A stretch of DNA of 20,319 bases, taken from the IMG/VR virus record IMGVR_UViG_3300013099_000117, positions 1 through 20,319 of that record; one strand, 5' to 3'. Shown piece after piece: positions 7,118-18,484 of the stretch; position 1 is the stretch's first letter; each line of letters begins with the position of its first letter. The notes below the pieces were generated by a model, which worked only from the letters and a program-made list of their open reading frames with translations, did no database searches and was not told the DNA's origin. Both the position numbers and the translations under genes were made by a program. This DNA comes from a virus.

Positions 7118-7792
7118 TCACTCCATTAAAGGCACAAGTGGCACATTTGTTGAGCAGGTGGTGCTAGTACATCTGTACCCACAGTATATTGGATTTCTAT
7201 CCGTTCTAGCAAACCAGTTACCCTTGCTTAAACTCATACTAAAACCACCCATAACTGCTTTATTTGAAGCAAAAATATCTGGCGTGTATGTTAATCTAAT
7301 AGTATCTAAATGTGAGTAAACATAGTTACGAGAAAAATCCCTAACTTTCTGTAATGTTAAATCAATATCTTTTATATAAGAAGTATCAATTAAAATAACA
7401 ATATCATGTGTCCAAGGAGTGGGCTCACCAGATTCCCACCATTCCTGAAGTGCTACATCTAGTCCAAGTAATTTTAAGGTTAGTTGATAACCTAACTTTG
7501 AACCCTTCATCTGTTGAACCCAAGCAAAGAAGGATAAAAGATCATTAAACGAGTAATTTGTTATGGTATCCATTAAATCAACGAGATACCCATAACCCAT
7601 CTCAATAAGTATTTCTTTAATAACTTCTTCTCGAACTATTTCTGGTCTTATATATTTATAAACTACATCTTCATTAGCAGATAAGCCTGGAGCTATTCCA
7701 TAATCTATAAGATCACAAACCATAGTCCAGAAGTCATACTTTTGGAGTGCTTCAGGTAAAAATGATTTAGAATCTGAAAGTTCCGGGCCCAT
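7118..7792 (-). CDS. Baseplate protein I-like (P2 gpI family, fibre-attachment wedge component)
   Basis: The product is 224 aa. Its ATG overlaps the stop of the gp6-like gene (TAATG). Residues 15-90 are helical and include 'LIDYGIAPGLSANEDVVYKYIRPEIV'-type segments. The run 'KGSKLGYQLTLKLLGLDV' (96-113) followed by 'EWWESGEPTPWTHDIVILID' (117-136) is the layout of P2 gpI-type tail proteins, where a short helical motif precedes a beta domain. The order gp25, J/gp6, I, H is a hallmark of simple contractile baseplates and supports the call. In that family this protein joins the wedge to the tail fibre. A C-terminal cysteine cluster (C204, C208, C213) is unusual and might bind metal; this is inference. 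Confidence 0.75.
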   Translation of the reverse strand: MGPELSDSKSFLPEALQKYDFWTMVCDLIDYGIAPGLSANEDVVYKYIRPEIVREEVIKEILIEMGYGYLVDLMDTITNYSFNDLLSFFAWVQQMKGSKLGYQLTLKLLGLDVALQEWWESGEPTPWTHDIVILIDTSYIKDIDLTLQKVRDFSRNYVYSHLDTIRLTYTPDIFASNKAVMGGFSMSLSKGNWFARTDRNPIYCGYRCTSTTCSTNVPLVPLME

Positions 7793-10089
7793 TAAGTCCT
7801 CGTAGTAATTTTTTCATTTATTAAATAATATTGATTATAGTCTAAAGGTGCAGCAACACTTTTTCCTTTTGTTACCCACATAACTTGATAGTCAGGAGAT
7901 TCTGCTCCCTCGGCACTCGGCCAAGTAGGTTCTGTTGCCCCTGAAAGTCCTAGAAAGTTAGCTACTTGAAACATCAGCCCTTCGGTATCTGAGATAATAG
8001 GGTCTGAGGGCTCTACTATATCTCCAAGGCTATAATCTACATTAGCTGTCCATGTTGTAGGAACCCCTTCCTTTAACACAGTAGTCCACAGAAGATCGTT
8101 ATCTTGAAAAGTTACCCCTACCATATCCCCCAATCCTCTTCCTTGAACTTTCGGCCAAATAGGTTCTGTTGCTCCCGACAAATTTACATTATTAATACAT
8201 TTATACATAAAAGTATCACCAGCATCCCCAGGAATATTATTGGTAATAGTCATCGTCGAGGTTCCTGAGTCATGTACTCGTGGGCCAGAAGTTTCTTGTG
8301 TTATTTTAACATCGTTTATATTTATAACAGCTAAAGCAATTCCAGGGTCTGCTTCTAAAAGAGGGCCCAGGATTACTGCGATGTTCGGAGCAAATTCCCC
8401 AGAGGATATTGGTATTGTTACATCTCGTGTGGCCCCAGTAGGGACCGCAGGGTTTCCTGCTCCTGTATCAAAGATAACTCCAAGAGTTACACCATCTCCA
8501 ACATCCAAGACGAAATATTTTTGATCTAAAAAGTTAGGTGGGGAGTCATCAATAAGAGCAATAGTGTCGTCAGAATTCACCCCAGGGTTTACCGGGATAA
8601 CGTAGTCGCCGACATTATAATGTTTCCCAAATTCCCAAGCAGGTAGAACCTCATCATTATCACGAGCTTCAGTAACCCAGATAACTCTATTATCTTCTAC
8701 ATTTTGGCCCAGAGTTAAAGCCCAAACAGGTTCTGTTGTGCCTGATTTATATAAGAGGTGACCACACTGTTGAATAAAAGTAGAATCACCTGTATCTAGG
8801 GTTTCACCCATCTGGTAACGAAAATCATTTGACCAAGAATTCCCACTAAAAAATGCCCTGGCAACTTTTACACCACCAAGGTCTTCTATCCGCATCTCAA
8901 TTTCCTCAAAGTCTAAAACTAAATCTAGTTGCTTAGAATAACTTTGAATAATATCTGAAACTTCCTGCGCTAGTGTTCCTGGCGTTGGTGGAAGTAGCAC
9001 AATATCTATGCCCACAGTTACGGGAACTCTTAAAGCGTTTGACCAAGAAGGCGGCATCATTCCAAATTGTCGAATTGACTCAAAAAATACAGTTAACTCA
9101 CCTACCTCTAAATAATTAAGGGTAGATAAATCAGCTTTTAGTATGGAAACGTCAATAACGCCGAGACTTACATCTACTCCTTTAGCATCAATATATTTTG
9201 GAGACGATAGGATTACGATTTTTTCTACATCATTTCTAGCTCTAATAATAAACTGAGTCTCAAAGTAAAGAGGCGCATGAAGCTTTATCGAATCATTTTT
9301 TTCCTCCGTTAAAAACAGACTAAGGATCTCAGTATCTATAATAGACCCATAATTGAAGGTAACTTTGGAGGAATCAATTTCTACATTCTGTAATTCAACA
9401 TAGCTTAACTCAATAACAGAATTTGCTATGTATTTGTTTTCTGATGTTATTGGGTTTAGAGAAAATAAGTCCACAGACTCATAAGGGTTAGTAATAACTA
9501 TAAACTGAGAAGTATCAAGGTCTTTTATTTGCTTTGACACTGTGACAACTTGATCATCAATTTTAACTGACAACTCTTCAGAAACGCCCACCTGAATAAA
9601 TCTAAAGATCCCTAAAGAGCTAGAAGAGGCTAAAAGAGATTCTGTTTTAATAAGACCTACAACAACATCAAAAGTTATTGGCGTTCCTGCCACTAAAGTT
9701 ATGTCGTTTAATAAAAGAAGATCATAGTTAGAAATAGTACCTATAAGATCAAATCTTTCTAATGATATAGTTGTATTAGCTAGGACAGTTAATCGTAATT
9801 TAGGGTTATCACCACGAAATACTGAATATCCCAAATACTGGGACGCTCCTATCAAGGATGATCTGTTCTGGGCATACTGAAAATATGCTTCTCTTCTCCC
9901 GACAATAGATTGATATTCGAAATATGATGCCATCCCCGCGATGAGTTCAAGCATCGTCTGACCAACGCCAGTAGAGAAATAATTATCCCACTTACTTGAG
10001 TCTGGGTGTGTGCCAACATACGAATTGATATCGCTTAATATAGATCTAAAATCAACTGAATTTGGATTGATTACCCAAGTATCCTTCAT
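7792..10089 (-). CDS. Baseplate wedge protein, gp6/J-like, with repeat-bearing C-terminal extension
   Basis: The product is 765 aa; its ATG overlaps the gp25 stop as ATGA, with AGGTGAG 8 nt upstream. Residues 1 to about 425 look like a baseplate J/gp6 wedge protein: N-terminal 'FSTGVGQTMLELIAGMASYFEYQ' type helices, a beta-rich middle, and a C-terminal 'GTLAQEVSDIIQSY...LDLVLDFEEIEMRIEDLGGVKVA' segment typical of the family. This forms the ring that holds the baseplate together and triggers sheath contraction. Residues 440-745 are an addition carrying three repeats with a Ser-Gly-x-Thr-Glu-Pro-x-Trp core (around 449, 638 and 716), each ending near a 'v.Wvt' strand. The second is interrupted by a module (about 518-622, 'VPTGATRDVTIPISS') also found in the fibres. 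The extension may bind sugars or anchor fibres; this is inference. The gp6/J call itself is firm by fold layout and position. Confidence 0.85.
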   Translation of the reverse strand: MKDTWVINPNSVDFRSILSDINSYVGTHPDSSKWDNYFSTGVGQTMLELIAGMASYFEYQSIVGRREAYFQYAQNRSSLIGASQYLGYSVFRGDNPKLRLTVLANTTISLERFDLIGTISNYDLLLLNDITLVAGTPITFDVVVGLIKTESLLASSSSLGIFRFIQVGVSEELSVKIDDQVVTVSKQIKDLDTSQFIVITNPYESVDLFSLNPITSENKYIANSVIELSYVELQNVEIDSSKVTFNYGSIIDTEILSLFLTEEKNDSIKLHAPLYFETQFIIRARNDVEKIVILSSPKYIDAKGVDVSLGVIDVSILKADLSTLNYLEVGELTVFFESIRQFGMMPPSWSNALRVPVTVGIDIVLLPPTPGTLAQEVSDIIQSYSKQLDLVLDFEEIEMRIEDLGGVKVARAFFSGNSWSNDFRYQMGETLDTGDSTFIQQCGHLLYKSGTTEPVWALTLGQNVEDNRVIWVTEARDNDEVLPAWEFGKHYNVGDYVIPVNPGVNSDDTIALIDDSPPNFLDQKYFVLDVGDGVTLGVIFDTGAGNPAVPTGATRDVTIPISSGEFAPNIAVILGPLLEADPGIALAVININDVKITQETSGPRVHDSGTSTMTITNNIPGDAGDTFMYKCINNVNLSGATEPIWPKVQGRGLGDMVGVTFQDNDLLWTTVLKEGVPTTWTANVDYSLGDIVEPSDPIISDTEGLMFQVANFLGLSGATEPTWPSAEGAESPDYQVMWVTKGKSVAAPLDYNQYYLINEKITTRT
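8224..8538 (-). repeat. Fibre-type beta module inserted in the gp6-like wedge protein
   Basis: Residues 518-622 ('KYFVLDVGDG', then 'TGATRDVTIPI', then a helix-like 'EADPGIALAV', then 'ITQETSGP') follow the same plan as segments in both fibres: left fibre residues 520-620 and central fibre about 960-1048 and 1093-1188. The shared pattern is an aromatic 'Y..VD..G', a 'GA[TS]R[SD][IV].I' strand, a small-residue helix and a 'vtIt...G' strand. Confidence 0.6.
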
Positions 10090-15735: not shown

Positions 15736-17592
15736 CTAATCTGCGTATCCTAAGTTTAGCATAGATAAACTCATGTCATTTGGGATTTGAGGCATTCTAC
15801 CCGACTGTTTGGGGGAAGAACCTCCAACAGCAGGAGATACAATTGGTCCACCTCCGGGCCCAGATCCTTGTCTAGCATCTTTCTTAGGTGGGTCAGTATC
15901 TACTCTTGGGAGGGCCTTAGGTTTAAGACCTGATATACCTGTGGAGGCCAAATGTTTATCAGTGCCACCTGCTGGTGTTGCTCCCTCACCTCTTGCTAAA
16001 GCCCTAGTTTCTTCTAACTGTTTTTTGGTAATATTTGGAACCTCTTCCCCAGCTTTTAGTCTCTTATCATAATTTCTAATTGCAAAGGATGCTTTCCTCT
16101 GGCTTTTTTCTTCCGTAGCTGAACTAAAATTATTTTTTAAATTCTCTACTCTTTTTGAGTCACGATGTTCATTACCTTCTCTTTTTTGTTTATCTTCGTC
16201 TGTTTCTTTTCCACCTCCCCCACCGATCCATTCTGGCATCTTTTGCCAGAGGTCTTCAAACCATTGGACAATCTTTCCTATGCCTTCAAAGATAGCCTGG
16301 GTGAACTCATCTATTGAGGGAAACCACTCTCTAAGTTTTCCGCCTAACCAATAGGCCGCTCCAAAGATAATGGCCCCTAAACCTAAAAGCATTAGAGGGG
16401 TTGAAATCATACTCCAAAGACCTGCAAGGAAAGGCCACACTTTTAGAAGGCCTTTCCACATACCCTTAAAACCCTTCTTTAACATAGCTGTCATCTTGGG
16501 GAAATATTTTTCAAACGCCCCCATCATTTTCCCAAAACCTTTTTTAATAAGACCCCCCATCCCCTTAAGAAGACCACCCATCATCTTCCCCAAAAATTTA
16601 AAGGTAGCTTTTAGCGCATTAAAAAGACCTTTAAGATCATTCCAAACTACAGACAACTGTTTTGATAAATTACCCATCCCTGGAAGGAAAAAATCTAAGT
16701 ATCCTTTTTGGGAAACTTCCCACATCTCAGAACCTAAGTCCTTAAGGATGTCTCCAAGAAGAGATACCTCAAAAGCAGTTTTGAAGCTGTTTTCAGTGAC
16801 TCTTCCCATCTGCTCAGAGGTCTTTGACAAGATTACATTACTAGTTATCATCTCTTTTGTTAGTGGCTTAAAAGCTTCTATGACAGGAGAATTTTCATCG
16901 AAGTTATCTTTGTCTGCTCTATCTATCAAGGTTACTAAATGCTCATCCAACTCTTCTAAAGACCCATGTTGATTTTTCATATCGTCGGTCATCAAATCTT
17001 TATTTTCTCGTAACTGTTGGACAAACTGCTTGAACTCTTTTCTCTTCTCCTTAGTATCTACTGATTGATCATCTAATATGTCATTTAAATATTGTGCTTG
17101 AGTGCTAAGGTTTACCTCAAATATTATTCCTAAAGACTTGGAATTCTGACTAAGGATCTCTAGTTTCTCATTCAATAATGATTGTTGTTTATTATCTAAC
17201 TTCCCCTCACGCATAAAAGTTTGACTTAACTCTTTTCCAAGATCAACATTACTTTGTGTCAATTCATCTAATATGGCCTTAGCTCTTTCATCCCCATCTT
17301 TCTCCCATTTTTCTTCTAACTTCTTCCTATTTGTTTCAGACCCAAACATACTTTGAAGCATCTCAAGTTGTTTAACTCCAACACCATGGGTAGCTTTATT
17401 TTGTTCTTTCTCTATAGCTATTTGTCTGTCTTCACTTTTTTTCCGTGCCTTGGCATCTGTAGATAGCACACTAGTATTTTTTTGAATTTCACTGAGTTTT
17501 TTGAAAAGAGCTTTCTCTATACCTTTAGCGGATGCATCTCTACCCTTGCCCCCGCCACCAACAGTCCCATGTACTCTTCCTTGTAATGCCAT
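15736..17592 (-). CDS. Tail tape-measure protein, gp29-like
   Basis: The product is 618 aa, close to T4 gp29 (590 aa). ATG 17592 has GGGAG 7 nt upstream. Residues 25-270 are charged, heptad-like helix rich in Lys, Glu and Gln, with few prolines. Residues 305-390 carry Gly/Lys/Met-rich amphipathic repeats ('LGKMMGG', 'LLKGMGGLIKKGFGKMMGAF', 'LKKGFKGMWKGLLKVWPFL'), and 384-416 is strongly hydrophobic with a probable membrane-spanning run. A Gly run at 457-461, a charged stretch and a disordered Pro/Ser/Gly tail follow. This is the usual make-up of a tape measure, which fills the tube, sets tail length and helps form the DNA passage in the inner membrane. At about 0.15 nm per residue, a known rule for the class, it predicts a tail of roughly 90 nm. 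The position directly after the chaperone supports the call. Confidence 0.9.
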   Translation of the reverse strand: MALQGRVHGTVGGGGKGRDASAKGIEKALFKKLSEIQKNTSVLSTDAKARKKSEDRQIAIEKEQNKATHGVGVKQLEMLQSMFGSETNRKKLEEKWEKDGDERAKAILDELTQSNVDLGKELSQTFMREGKLDNKQQSLLNEKLEILSQNSKSLGIIFEVNLSTQAQYLNDILDDQSVDTKEKRKEFKQFVQQLRENKDLMTDDMKNQHGSLEELDEHLVTLIDRADKDNFDENSPVIEAFKPLTKEMITSNVILSKTSEQMGRVTENSFKTAFEVSLLGDILKDLGSEMWEVSQKGYLDFFLPGMGNLSKQLSVVWNDLKGLFNALKATFKFLGKMMGGLLKGMGGLIKKGFGKMMGAFEKYFPKMTAMLKKGFKGMWKGLLKVWPFLAGLWSMISTPLMLLGLGAIIFGAAYWLGGKLREWFPSIDEFTQAIFEGIGKIVQWFEDLWQKMPEWIGGGGGKETDEDKQKREGNEHRDSKRVENLKNNFSSATEEKSQRKASFAIRNYDKRLKAGEEVPNITKKQLEETRALARGEGATPAGGTDKHLASTGISGLKPKALPRVDTDPPKKDARQGSGPGGGPIVSPAVGGSSPKQSGRMPQIPNDMSLSMLNLGYAD

Positions 17593-17595
17593 CGA

Positions 17596-17793
17596 CTATC
17601 TCCCAGATATAGCTTCCTTTTCTTTCTCTAACGCTGTACTTAAAGCATCGCATAGATAATTAACTTCTTGAAAGTCTAAAAAATTTAAATGGTACGGGCT
17701 AATTCCTAGCTTGTATGCCAAAGCGAATTCTGCCTTTAGGAGGTTCTTTATCTCCACGAAACGGTAAGACCAAAGTTTGGCCCACCTCCAGGT
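17596..17793 (-). CDS. Shifted-frame C-terminal extension of the tail assembly chaperone (T-like domain)
   Basis: In the +1 frame relative to the gp26-like gene, 65 codons are open from just after a TAA (17796-17794) to TAG 17598, leaving 3 nt before the tape-measure ATG. The last 53 codons read like a real helical domain: 'EIKNLLKAEFALAYKLGIS', then 'LNFLDFQEVNYLCDAL', ending in 'EKEKEAISGR'. This follows the plan of lambda gpT-like tail chaperone segments (helix, 'lA..LG.s...L..l...E.....al'). No ATG lies in the frame, and the possible GTG or TTG starts lack good ribosome binding sites, which points to entry by frameshift from the upstream gene. A +1 shift would give a 295-aa fusion and a -2 shift 296 aa. 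Without this extension, 17593-17698 would be a non-coding gap much longer than any other here. Confidence 0.7.
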   Translation of the reverse strand, partial: TWRWAKLWSYRFVEIKNLLKAEFALAYKLGISPYHLNFLDFQEVNYLCDALSTALEKEKEAISGR

Positions 17794-18484
17794 TTATTTT
17801 GAATTCTTTCTTGCAGAAAGCACAGGTTGTGGGTAAGGGCTTAACCCCATGATATAAATACTTGTCAACTTCGTTCATGTACTCGGCTTCTGCTAACGTG
17901 AAGCTGGAAAAGATATCGTAAGAGTCTTGAAAATCCATGTTTCTACAGCAACTGGCCAACACAGCAATTATATCACTACTTAAGTCTGTCTCTATCAAAT
18001 GATAAAAATCACCTAATGTTACTGGTGAAAAGTGAAATTCATAGGTTTGACCACTATCTCTTTCTAAATCAAAAATCAGAGGAAGCTCTACTTCAAGATC
18101 ATCAAAATCTAGATTAGCAAGAGTGAAGTCAATGGAATTTTCTTTCTTACAACTTACACAATTGGACTTAAGACTGAACTTAGATTTTCCTAAAGATGAA
18201 ATCTTTCTCAAAAGACCTATATACATAAGGTCTGAGATTGTAATTAATAGTTGATCAAAATTGGTCTTTATTCCAGAGACAACAAACTCTAAATATTCTC
18301 GCTCTGATACATTAGATTGGGAGATTTTCTTTATTTCCCCAAAAGTGTAGGGAGTATATGAAACCTCTGCCCCATCAGGATAAGCTCTACCCTTGCTTGG
18401 GAGGCCCTCTAAAGTCAAATTAATACTCGAGAGAGCTTGGGATTGTATTTGTTGTTTTTGATCTACTATAGGTTGAAAGCTCAT
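17699..18484 (-). CDS. Baseplate hub subunit / tail assembly chaperone, gp26-like, with two CxxC zinc knuckles
   Basis: The product is 261 aa in the unshifted frame. Residues 27-50 ('GLPSKGRAYPDG...YTPYTFGEIKKIS') and the following helices resemble T4 gp26/gp51-type baseplate hub assembly proteins, which are small factors needed to build the hub around the tape measure. Two CxxC pairs, C109/C112 and C221/C224, each lie in a '[CV].C...' knuckle followed by Lys and polar residues, and could jointly hold one zinc. The acidic centre 'DFDDLEVELPLIFDLERD' is conserved-looking. It lies between the tube proteins and the tape measure, exactly where siphophages and P2 carry frameshifted G/GT or E/E' chaperones, and a matching extension frame overlaps its 3' end. 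The last 15-20 residues (after 'LPFRGD') are basic and may be absent from the shifted form. Confidence 0.8.
   Translation of the reverse strand: MSFQPIVDQKQQIQSQALSSINLTLEGLPSKGRAYPDGAEVSYTPYTFGEIKKISQSNVSEREYLEFVVSGIKTNFDQLLITISDLMYIGLLRKISSLGKSKFSLKSNCVSCKKENSIDFTLANLDFDDLEVELPLIFDLERDSGQTYEFHFSPVTLGDFYHLIETDLSSDIIAVLASCCRNMDFQDSYDIFSSFTLAEAEYMNEVDKYLYHGVKPLPTTCAFCKKEFKINLEVGQTLVLPFRGDKEPPKGRIRFGIQARN
17734..17761 (-). other. Probable programmed frameshift window in the chaperone gene
   Basis: The shift must occur between 17793 and 17699. Good +1 slip sites in this part are TTT-C (codon at 17761-17759, tRNA-Phe can re-pair with TTC), AAA-G (17749-17747) and AAA-G (17737-17735, after CCT-CCT). 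A GGAGG run about 35 nt upstream and GGAG near 17755 could act as internal Shine-Dalgarno stimulators, as in prfB. The exact site is not settled from sequence alone. Confidence 0.45.

Follow-up and report, generated by a model that had tools for sequence, protein, structure and literature searches.

The gp26-like gene and its neighbours

The window, by which we mean the whole stretch of DNA that was analysed, is a 20,319-base fragment of an uncultured myovirus from IMG/VR, with tail and baseplate genes on its minus strand and no tRNA genes. The locus contains the following features:

17699..18484, minus strand: gp26-like gene encoding a putative tail/hub chaperone; zero-frame product of 261 aa and 29.6 kDa, stop TAG at 17701-17699
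17756..17764, minus strand: candidate +1 shift site CCG_TTT_CGT (E, P and A codons); CCN_TTT_C in 40/40 homologues with the ordinary gene layout
17699..17755, minus strand: zero-frame tail after the residues PFR, dual-coded with the +1 extension
17596..17760, minus strand: +1-frame extension of 54 codons plus stop, FVEIKNLLKAEFALAYKLGISPYHLNFLDFQEVNYLCDALSTALEKEKEAISGR; conserved in 35/35 representatives
17596..18484, minus strand: predicted frameshift fusion product of 295 aa and 33.4 kDa, assuming that one base is skipped at the site
15736..17592, minus strand: tape-measure protein gene, 618 aa, assigned from a PHROG match (tail length tape measure protein, E-values of 1e-4 to 1e-3) and position

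The gp26-like protein is a member of the T4 gp26/gp51 family PF12322. It matches the Pfam profile PF12322 (T4_baseplate) with an E-value of 5.8e-9 and 36.4 bits, above the gathering cut-off of 24.5, and phrog_150 (baseplate hub) with an E-value of 7.8e-7. The AlphaFold model of the zero-frame product has a pLDDT of 85, and its foldseek matches are T4-type baseplate hub proteins. T4 gp26 and gp51 are given as hub assembly chaperones (PMC3004832), and by analogy the window protein may act as a tail/hub assembly chaperone. It contains two CxxC pairs, C109/C112 and C221/C224. An earlier, sequence-only reading of this DNA described zinc knuckles here; CxxC pairs are indeed present and common in the family, but they are not universal, being lost in the Vibrio and Pseudomonas jumbo-type members L004, L008, L010 and L014, which retain the shift site and the extension.

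The tape-measure gene lies directly downstream, with its ATG at 17592. The 106-nt gap between the two genes is the largest in the module, where the remaining gaps are at most 55 nt. Elsewhere in the window, the C-terminal part of a baseplate wedge-like protein (7792-10089, minus strand) also matches the head-decoration family phrog_20658, which suggests a wedge-like protein with added repeat domains.

An open reading frame in the +1 frame relative to the gp26-like gene overlaps the 3′ end of that gene and fills the gap. The frame (17793-17596, minus strand) comprises 65 codons and the stop codon TAG at 17598-17596. It extends 103 nt beyond the gp26 stop, made up of 100 nt and the +1 stop codon, and leaves 3 nt up to the tape-measure ATG. 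It contains no ATG in the window, and no well-placed Shine-Dalgarno sequence precedes its candidate GTG and TTG starts. The sequence-only reading had described this arrangement correctly in its coordinates and counts, in the lack of an ATG and of a well-placed ribosome binding site, in the singular size of the 106-nt gap, and in the position of a gp26-like gene just before the tape measure, which the PF12322 match and the downstream PHROG match bear out. Conservation is limited to the 54 codons after the shift site (F-V-E-I-K...); the 11 codons with which the 65-codon frame begins are incidental. The same bases are present across the region in another, nearly identical contig (L001, 99.98%), and therefore a read error is excluded.

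A one-base step at the site would produce the junction sequence INLEVGQTLVLPFVEIK in the window fusion protein. For structure prediction, the zero-frame protein and the extension were folded separately, each as a plain translation. In the zero-frame product, pLDDT falls below 50 at residues 235-246 and 259-261, and the zero-frame tail after PFR is probably disordered according to the model. The extension is predicted to form helices at residues 4-18, 22-25 and 30-52, with a pLDDT of 83.

The +1 frame is conserved and under purifying selection

Homologues of the gp26-like gene were found in 26 phage records, in IMG/VR, and in one Pseudoalteromonas genome contig, with sources that include phages of Rhizobium, Pseudomonas, Vibrio, Escherichia, Acinetobacter and Thermus. 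Removal of duplicates gave 40 distinct genes, with 35 representatives that share less than 60% identity. In each of the 40 genes the +1 frame is open for 43-75 codons from the site and past the zero-frame stop. Over the 1,872 extension codons of the representatives, the -1 frame has 181 stops; the +1 frame has 0, as the definition of the run requires. Under a mononucleotide model in which the representatives are taken as independent, the open +1 runs in all 35 have a log10 P of about -59.

The extension is also under purifying selection, as judged from codons that lie wholly past the gp26 stop. Five close pairs of genes show 51 synonymous and 29 non-synonymous differences in these codons (pN/pS 0.14), and in the pairs with equal post-stop lengths the other two frames give the opposite pattern to the +1 frame. 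Alignment of homologues, the check proposed in the sequence-only reading, thus finds the frame open in 35/35 representatives with an excess of synonymous change. Stops or drift in this frame, one of two outcomes that had been named there as evidence against a frameshift, occur in none of the relatives.

The Pseudoalteromonas contig, L180 (NZ_WEHZ01000015.1, Pseudoalteromonas peptidolytica), came from a scan of genome contigs. Its gene layout is the same; the site reads CCC_TTT_CGC and is followed by a +1 extension. That bacterium probably carries a phage of this group, integrated or otherwise.

An invariant CCN_TTT_C near the end of the gene

In all 40 distinct homologues, an in-frame CCN_TTT_C occurs 9 to 26 codons upstream of the gp26 stop, and the corresponding residues P241 and F242 are nearly invariant. 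Among the 35 representatives, the phenylalanine codon is TTT in 35/35 and the following codon is CGT in 30, CGC in 4 and CAA in 1, while the third base of the proline codon, just before UUU, is unconstrained (C 22, G 7, T 4, A 2). Measured against each contig's own codon usage, exclusive use of TTT has a log10 P of -9.6 and use of CGT for arginine a log10 P of -21; these statistics treat lineages as independent, an assumption weakened by shared descent even though the representatives are less than 60% identical. In the window's genes, CGT accounts for 20/185 arginine codons. One homologue, L024, has lost the arginine and gained about 10 residues after the site but retains CCC_TTT_C.

The site does not have the form X_XXY_YYZ of a -1 slippery heptamer and is instead of the +1 type CCN_UUU_C. 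Sites of the PA-X class are defined by UUU_C with a CGN codon in the A site, and the corresponding TTT_CG is present in 34/35 representatives, with TTT_CA in one. Shine-Dalgarno and RNA-structure stimulators were considered and rejected: a Shine-Dalgarno-like sequence occurs within 15 nt upstream in 5/35 representatives against a background of 14%, which is no enrichment, and no downstream RNA structure was found at the site (mean z -0.11). Shine-Dalgarno-like 4-mers are concentrated at -25 to -18, where they overlap a conserved coding stretch for Asp/Glu-Gly-Gly. Slippage at CCN_UUU_CGU, at whatever rate, is a prediction from sequence comparison. One point against slippage is that slow decoding of CGU in all likely hosts is not established.

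Entry into the +1 frame

The +1 segment could instead be a separate small gene, translated by re-initiation close to the end of gp26 or from a non-ATG start (GTG at 17757, or the TTG that forms codon 14 of the extension), and it is annotated as a stand-alone small CDS in several records (RHph_TM39, Amme-1, GR11A and Vibrio 1.031.O). The TTG at codon 14 recurs in most representatives, and in the window it has a weak AAGG 8 nt upstream. However, this recurrence is a by-product of dual coding, with Phe-Gly read in the zero frame and Leu-Ala in the +1 frame; the TTG is replaced in some members, is mostly found without a Shine-Dalgarno sequence, and as a start would drop the conserved helix 1. A conserved start codon, the second outcome named as contrary evidence in the sequence-only reading, does not exist among the homologues. 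No ATG, GTG or TTG is present among the first 30 codons of L012 or L068, and the open +1 frame of L012, L023 and L058 reaches just 2 codons upstream of the site. Therefore, the +1 frame appears to be entered at the site itself. Independent starts would also leave the invariant CCN_TTT_C unexplained, and we consider a separate gene improbable.

The direction of the step can be read from the same alignment. The sequence-only reading, which did not identify the shift site, had allowed for either a +1 or a -2 shift, and the two lead to the same frame. The equivalent product in Mu is made by a -2 shift. In the present genes, the base before UUU can be C, G, T or A, so that tRNA-Phe cannot generally re-pair two bases back, whereas movement from UUU_C to U_UUC gives perfect re-pairing in the +1 direction. 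Because the base before UUU is free, the shift is read as +1 and not -2. Transcriptional slippage would need a long homopolymer for the polymerase, which is absent from the site. A -2 step or transcriptional slippage in place of a +1 ribosomal shift is thus very unlikely. It is scarcely credible that the PFR motif, although Pro-Phe-Arg is nearly invariant at the peptide level, is kept for protein reasons only, with the +1 frame a product of chance or dual constraint, given that TTT is always and CGT nearly always used against the contigs' codon bias (log10 P -9.6 and -21), that purifying selection in the +1 frame continues past the zero-frame stop, and that L024 still has TTT_C without the arginine.

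A likely relationship between the extension and the T4 gp51 tail

On its own, the extension has no match in Pfam, PHROGs or the PDB, and it does not match phrog_634 directly when 28 members are tried singly. A foldseek search with the extension returned nothing significant, with all E-values above 0.1; the weak matches in that range include tail assembly chaperones, gp51 of Acinetobacter phage ZZ1, and a small protein of phiW-14, and we give them no weight. The sequence-only reading had expected a helical domain with a plan like that of lambda gpT, to be sought by profile search. The helical fold is supported by the prediction, while the link to lambda is not: searches for sequence homology to the gpG and gpT families gave no Pfam or PHROG match, and profile alignment points to the gp51 tail instead.

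T4 has two PF12322 genes, encoding gp51, with a 48-aa tail, and gp26, without one. The last 47 residues of T4 gp51 match phrog_634 (baseplate hub assembly catalyst), as do segments from P-SSM2, KVP40 and phiW-14, and PHROG 150 contains both the gp26-type part and the tail in one chain. When the fused family of the window clade was aligned by hhalign with -1-fused cyanophage proteins and T4 gp51, the match had a probability of 97.6% and an E-value of 3.2e-12, and the alignment spans the extension. The profile score against the -1-fused relatives and T4 gp51 rose from 68.6 to 91.1 when the +1 extension was included; scrambled extensions gave 71.1 ± 1.9 and the zero-frame tail gave 69.8. The extension thus contributes 22.5 to the score, scrambled extension columns 2.5 ± 1.9, and the zero-frame tail 1.2. 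The extension segment alone also aligns profile to profile, in register and in the same place after gp26, with P 4.5e-4 for alignment A7 and P 0.0046 for a 40-row set, in which 0/100 column shuffles scored as high. On the basis of the profile alignment and the gain in score through the extension, we take it to be a likely distant relative of the T4 gp51 C-terminal tail.

Proposed other routes to a short and an extended chaperone in T4-type phages

The gp26 genes of the phages P-SSM2, S-PM2, KVP40, phiW-14 and BUCT608 end at T_TTT_TTC, beyond which the -1 frame stays open through a further segment. The segments from P-SSM2, KVP40 and phiW-14 match the same phrog_634 as the T4 gp51 C terminus, and the GenBank records of KVP40 and P-SSM2 label the short ORF gp51. 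The heptamer immediately precedes the gp26 stop in 80/80 cyanophage-type IMG/VR loci. With the named phages included, the loci that show it are L041, L042 and L100-L179, all of cyanophage type, and L045, L047 and L048. Elsewhere in cyanophage-type loci, Phe-Phe is spelled TTTTTC in ~6% of pairs (12/209). These sequences suggest that cyanophage-type gp26 probably undergoes an unrecognised -1 frameshift at a canonical heptamer. We grade this shift as probable only, because most cyanophage-type loci have an ATG near the gp26 stop, where re-initiation is possible. The order of gp26, short ORF and next gene or tape measure is shared by cyanophages, KVP40 and the window, and the cyanophage and KVP40 short ORF matches the T4 gp51 C terminus. 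It lies in the -1 frame after T_TTT_TTC and usually has an ATG near the gp26 stop, whereas the window clade uses the +1 frame.

Pseudomonas phage PaBG (L188, record 44072-45636) has a tandem pair of gp26-family genes directly upstream of a tape-measure-like gene, one encoding 265 aa without a C-terminal extension and the other 321 aa with one, which is a T4-style two-gene solution. In Bacillus phage SP-15 (L187:1455-2500) and Rhodothermus phage RM378 (L049), gp26 is followed by a +1-frame extension in the same place; in SP-15 the sequence where a site would be expected is TTT_TTT_CAC. L078 (2000-2860) encodes a gp26 relative that lacks the shift site and looked like an exception, but its reading frames suggest a similar helical C-terminal segment apparently fused in frame with gp26; only the first part of this segment aligned to the profile.

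The G/GT scheme therefore seems, from sequence comparison, to be present across the T4 supergroup with the direction of the frameshift switched between lineages. We think it likely that the supergroup makes a short and an extended chaperone (gp26, and gp26 with a gp51 tail), and that lineages have switched freely between a +1 shift (window clade, SP-15 and RM378), a -1 shift (cyanophages, KVP40, phiW-14 and BUCT608) and gene duplication (T4 genes 26 and 51, and the PaBG tandem pair). T4 itself appears to obtain both forms from its separate genes 26 and 51.

A probable programmed +1 frameshift in a gp26-type gene

The site and its invariance, the selected +1 frame, and the collinearity with T4-type gp26 plus a gp51 tail can be read directly from the aligned genes. 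They are very probably explained by a programmed +1 ribosomal frameshift in the gp26-like gene, which would yield short and fused forms like lambda G and GT. In this model, most ribosomes would reach the zero-frame stop and produce the 261-aa G-like chaperone, and a fraction would shift +1 at UUU_CGU to produce the 295-aa fusion, with an added segment that would be a small helical domain related to the T4 gp51 C-terminal tail. By analogy with lambda gpG and gpGT, from which the chaperone roles are taken, both forms probably bind the tape measure encoded next door. The short form may coat the tape measure, and the additional contact made by the long form may start tube or hub assembly by recruiting the tail tube or hub.

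The locus resembles lambda G/GT, P2 E/E′ and Mu in several respects: the gene is directly upstream of the tape measure, the predicted shift is near its 3′ end and would give a short and an extended form, the extension runs over the stop and occupies the space before the tape measure, and distant relatives keep the arrangement. However, the lambda-type shift is -1 on X_XXY_YYZ, whereas that of the window clade would be +1 at CCN_UUU_CGU, and the base protein is unrelated to that of lambda, belonging to the T4 gp26 family, often having CxxC pairs, and having no detectable gpG or gpT sequence match. With T4 (PF12322, phrog_150 and phrog_634), the window shares the PF12322 base domain, and the fusion aligns with a gp26-type domain followed by a gp51-type tail. 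In T4, these parts are encoded by two separate genes located away from the tape-measure gene and expressed without a frameshift, in contrast to the single gene beside the tape measure in the window.

The closest counterpart in the shift site is influenza A PA-X, where the +1 site UCC_UUU_CGU has been proven by mass spectrometry and tRNA-Phe moves from UUU to UUC (PMC3498833). PA-X likewise has no evident stimulatory signals (PMC5009743). The PA-X and window sites share UUU in the P site followed by CGU, a C-rich E-site codon nearby, the lack of evident structure, and an extension of about 40-60 codons (PMC3498833). They differ in that the window-clade sites are read by bacterial ribosomes and their E codon is any proline codon (CCN), and in that PA-X is a host shut-off factor whereas the products of the window clade would be tail-chaperone isoforms. 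A review also cites a predicted +1 tail-chaperone frameshift in the archaeal myovirus HSTV-2 (PMC5009743); as described there, the likeness lies in the +1 direction in the tail chaperone of a contractile-tailed virus.

Reviews describe the G/GT tail frameshift as widely conserved in long-tailed phages "except T4" (PMC5009743). Our search, which covered the open-access literature, turned up no paper describing a gp26-type gene with a frameshift. G/GT-type shifts are already known and a +1 shift has been suggested for HSTV-2; the new element is the proposed frameshift in a T4 gp26-type chaperone. The data indicate that the T4 exception is only apparent: T4-type chaperones share one short/long scheme, which the window clade reaches with a +1 shift, cyanophages probably with a -1 shift, and T4 with two genes. 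The homologues would also provide many naturally occurring UUU_CGU +1 sites for bacterial ribosomes, governed by one clade-wide rule, CCN_UUU_C, and useful for studying the effects of P-, A- and E-site codons in +1 slippage. In many phage genome annotations the extension is missing or stands as a gene of its own, and these would be corrected. Finally, gp51 has been reported as essential, its function unknown, within a contested hub pathway (PMC3004832); the short/long scheme would give it a specific, testable role.
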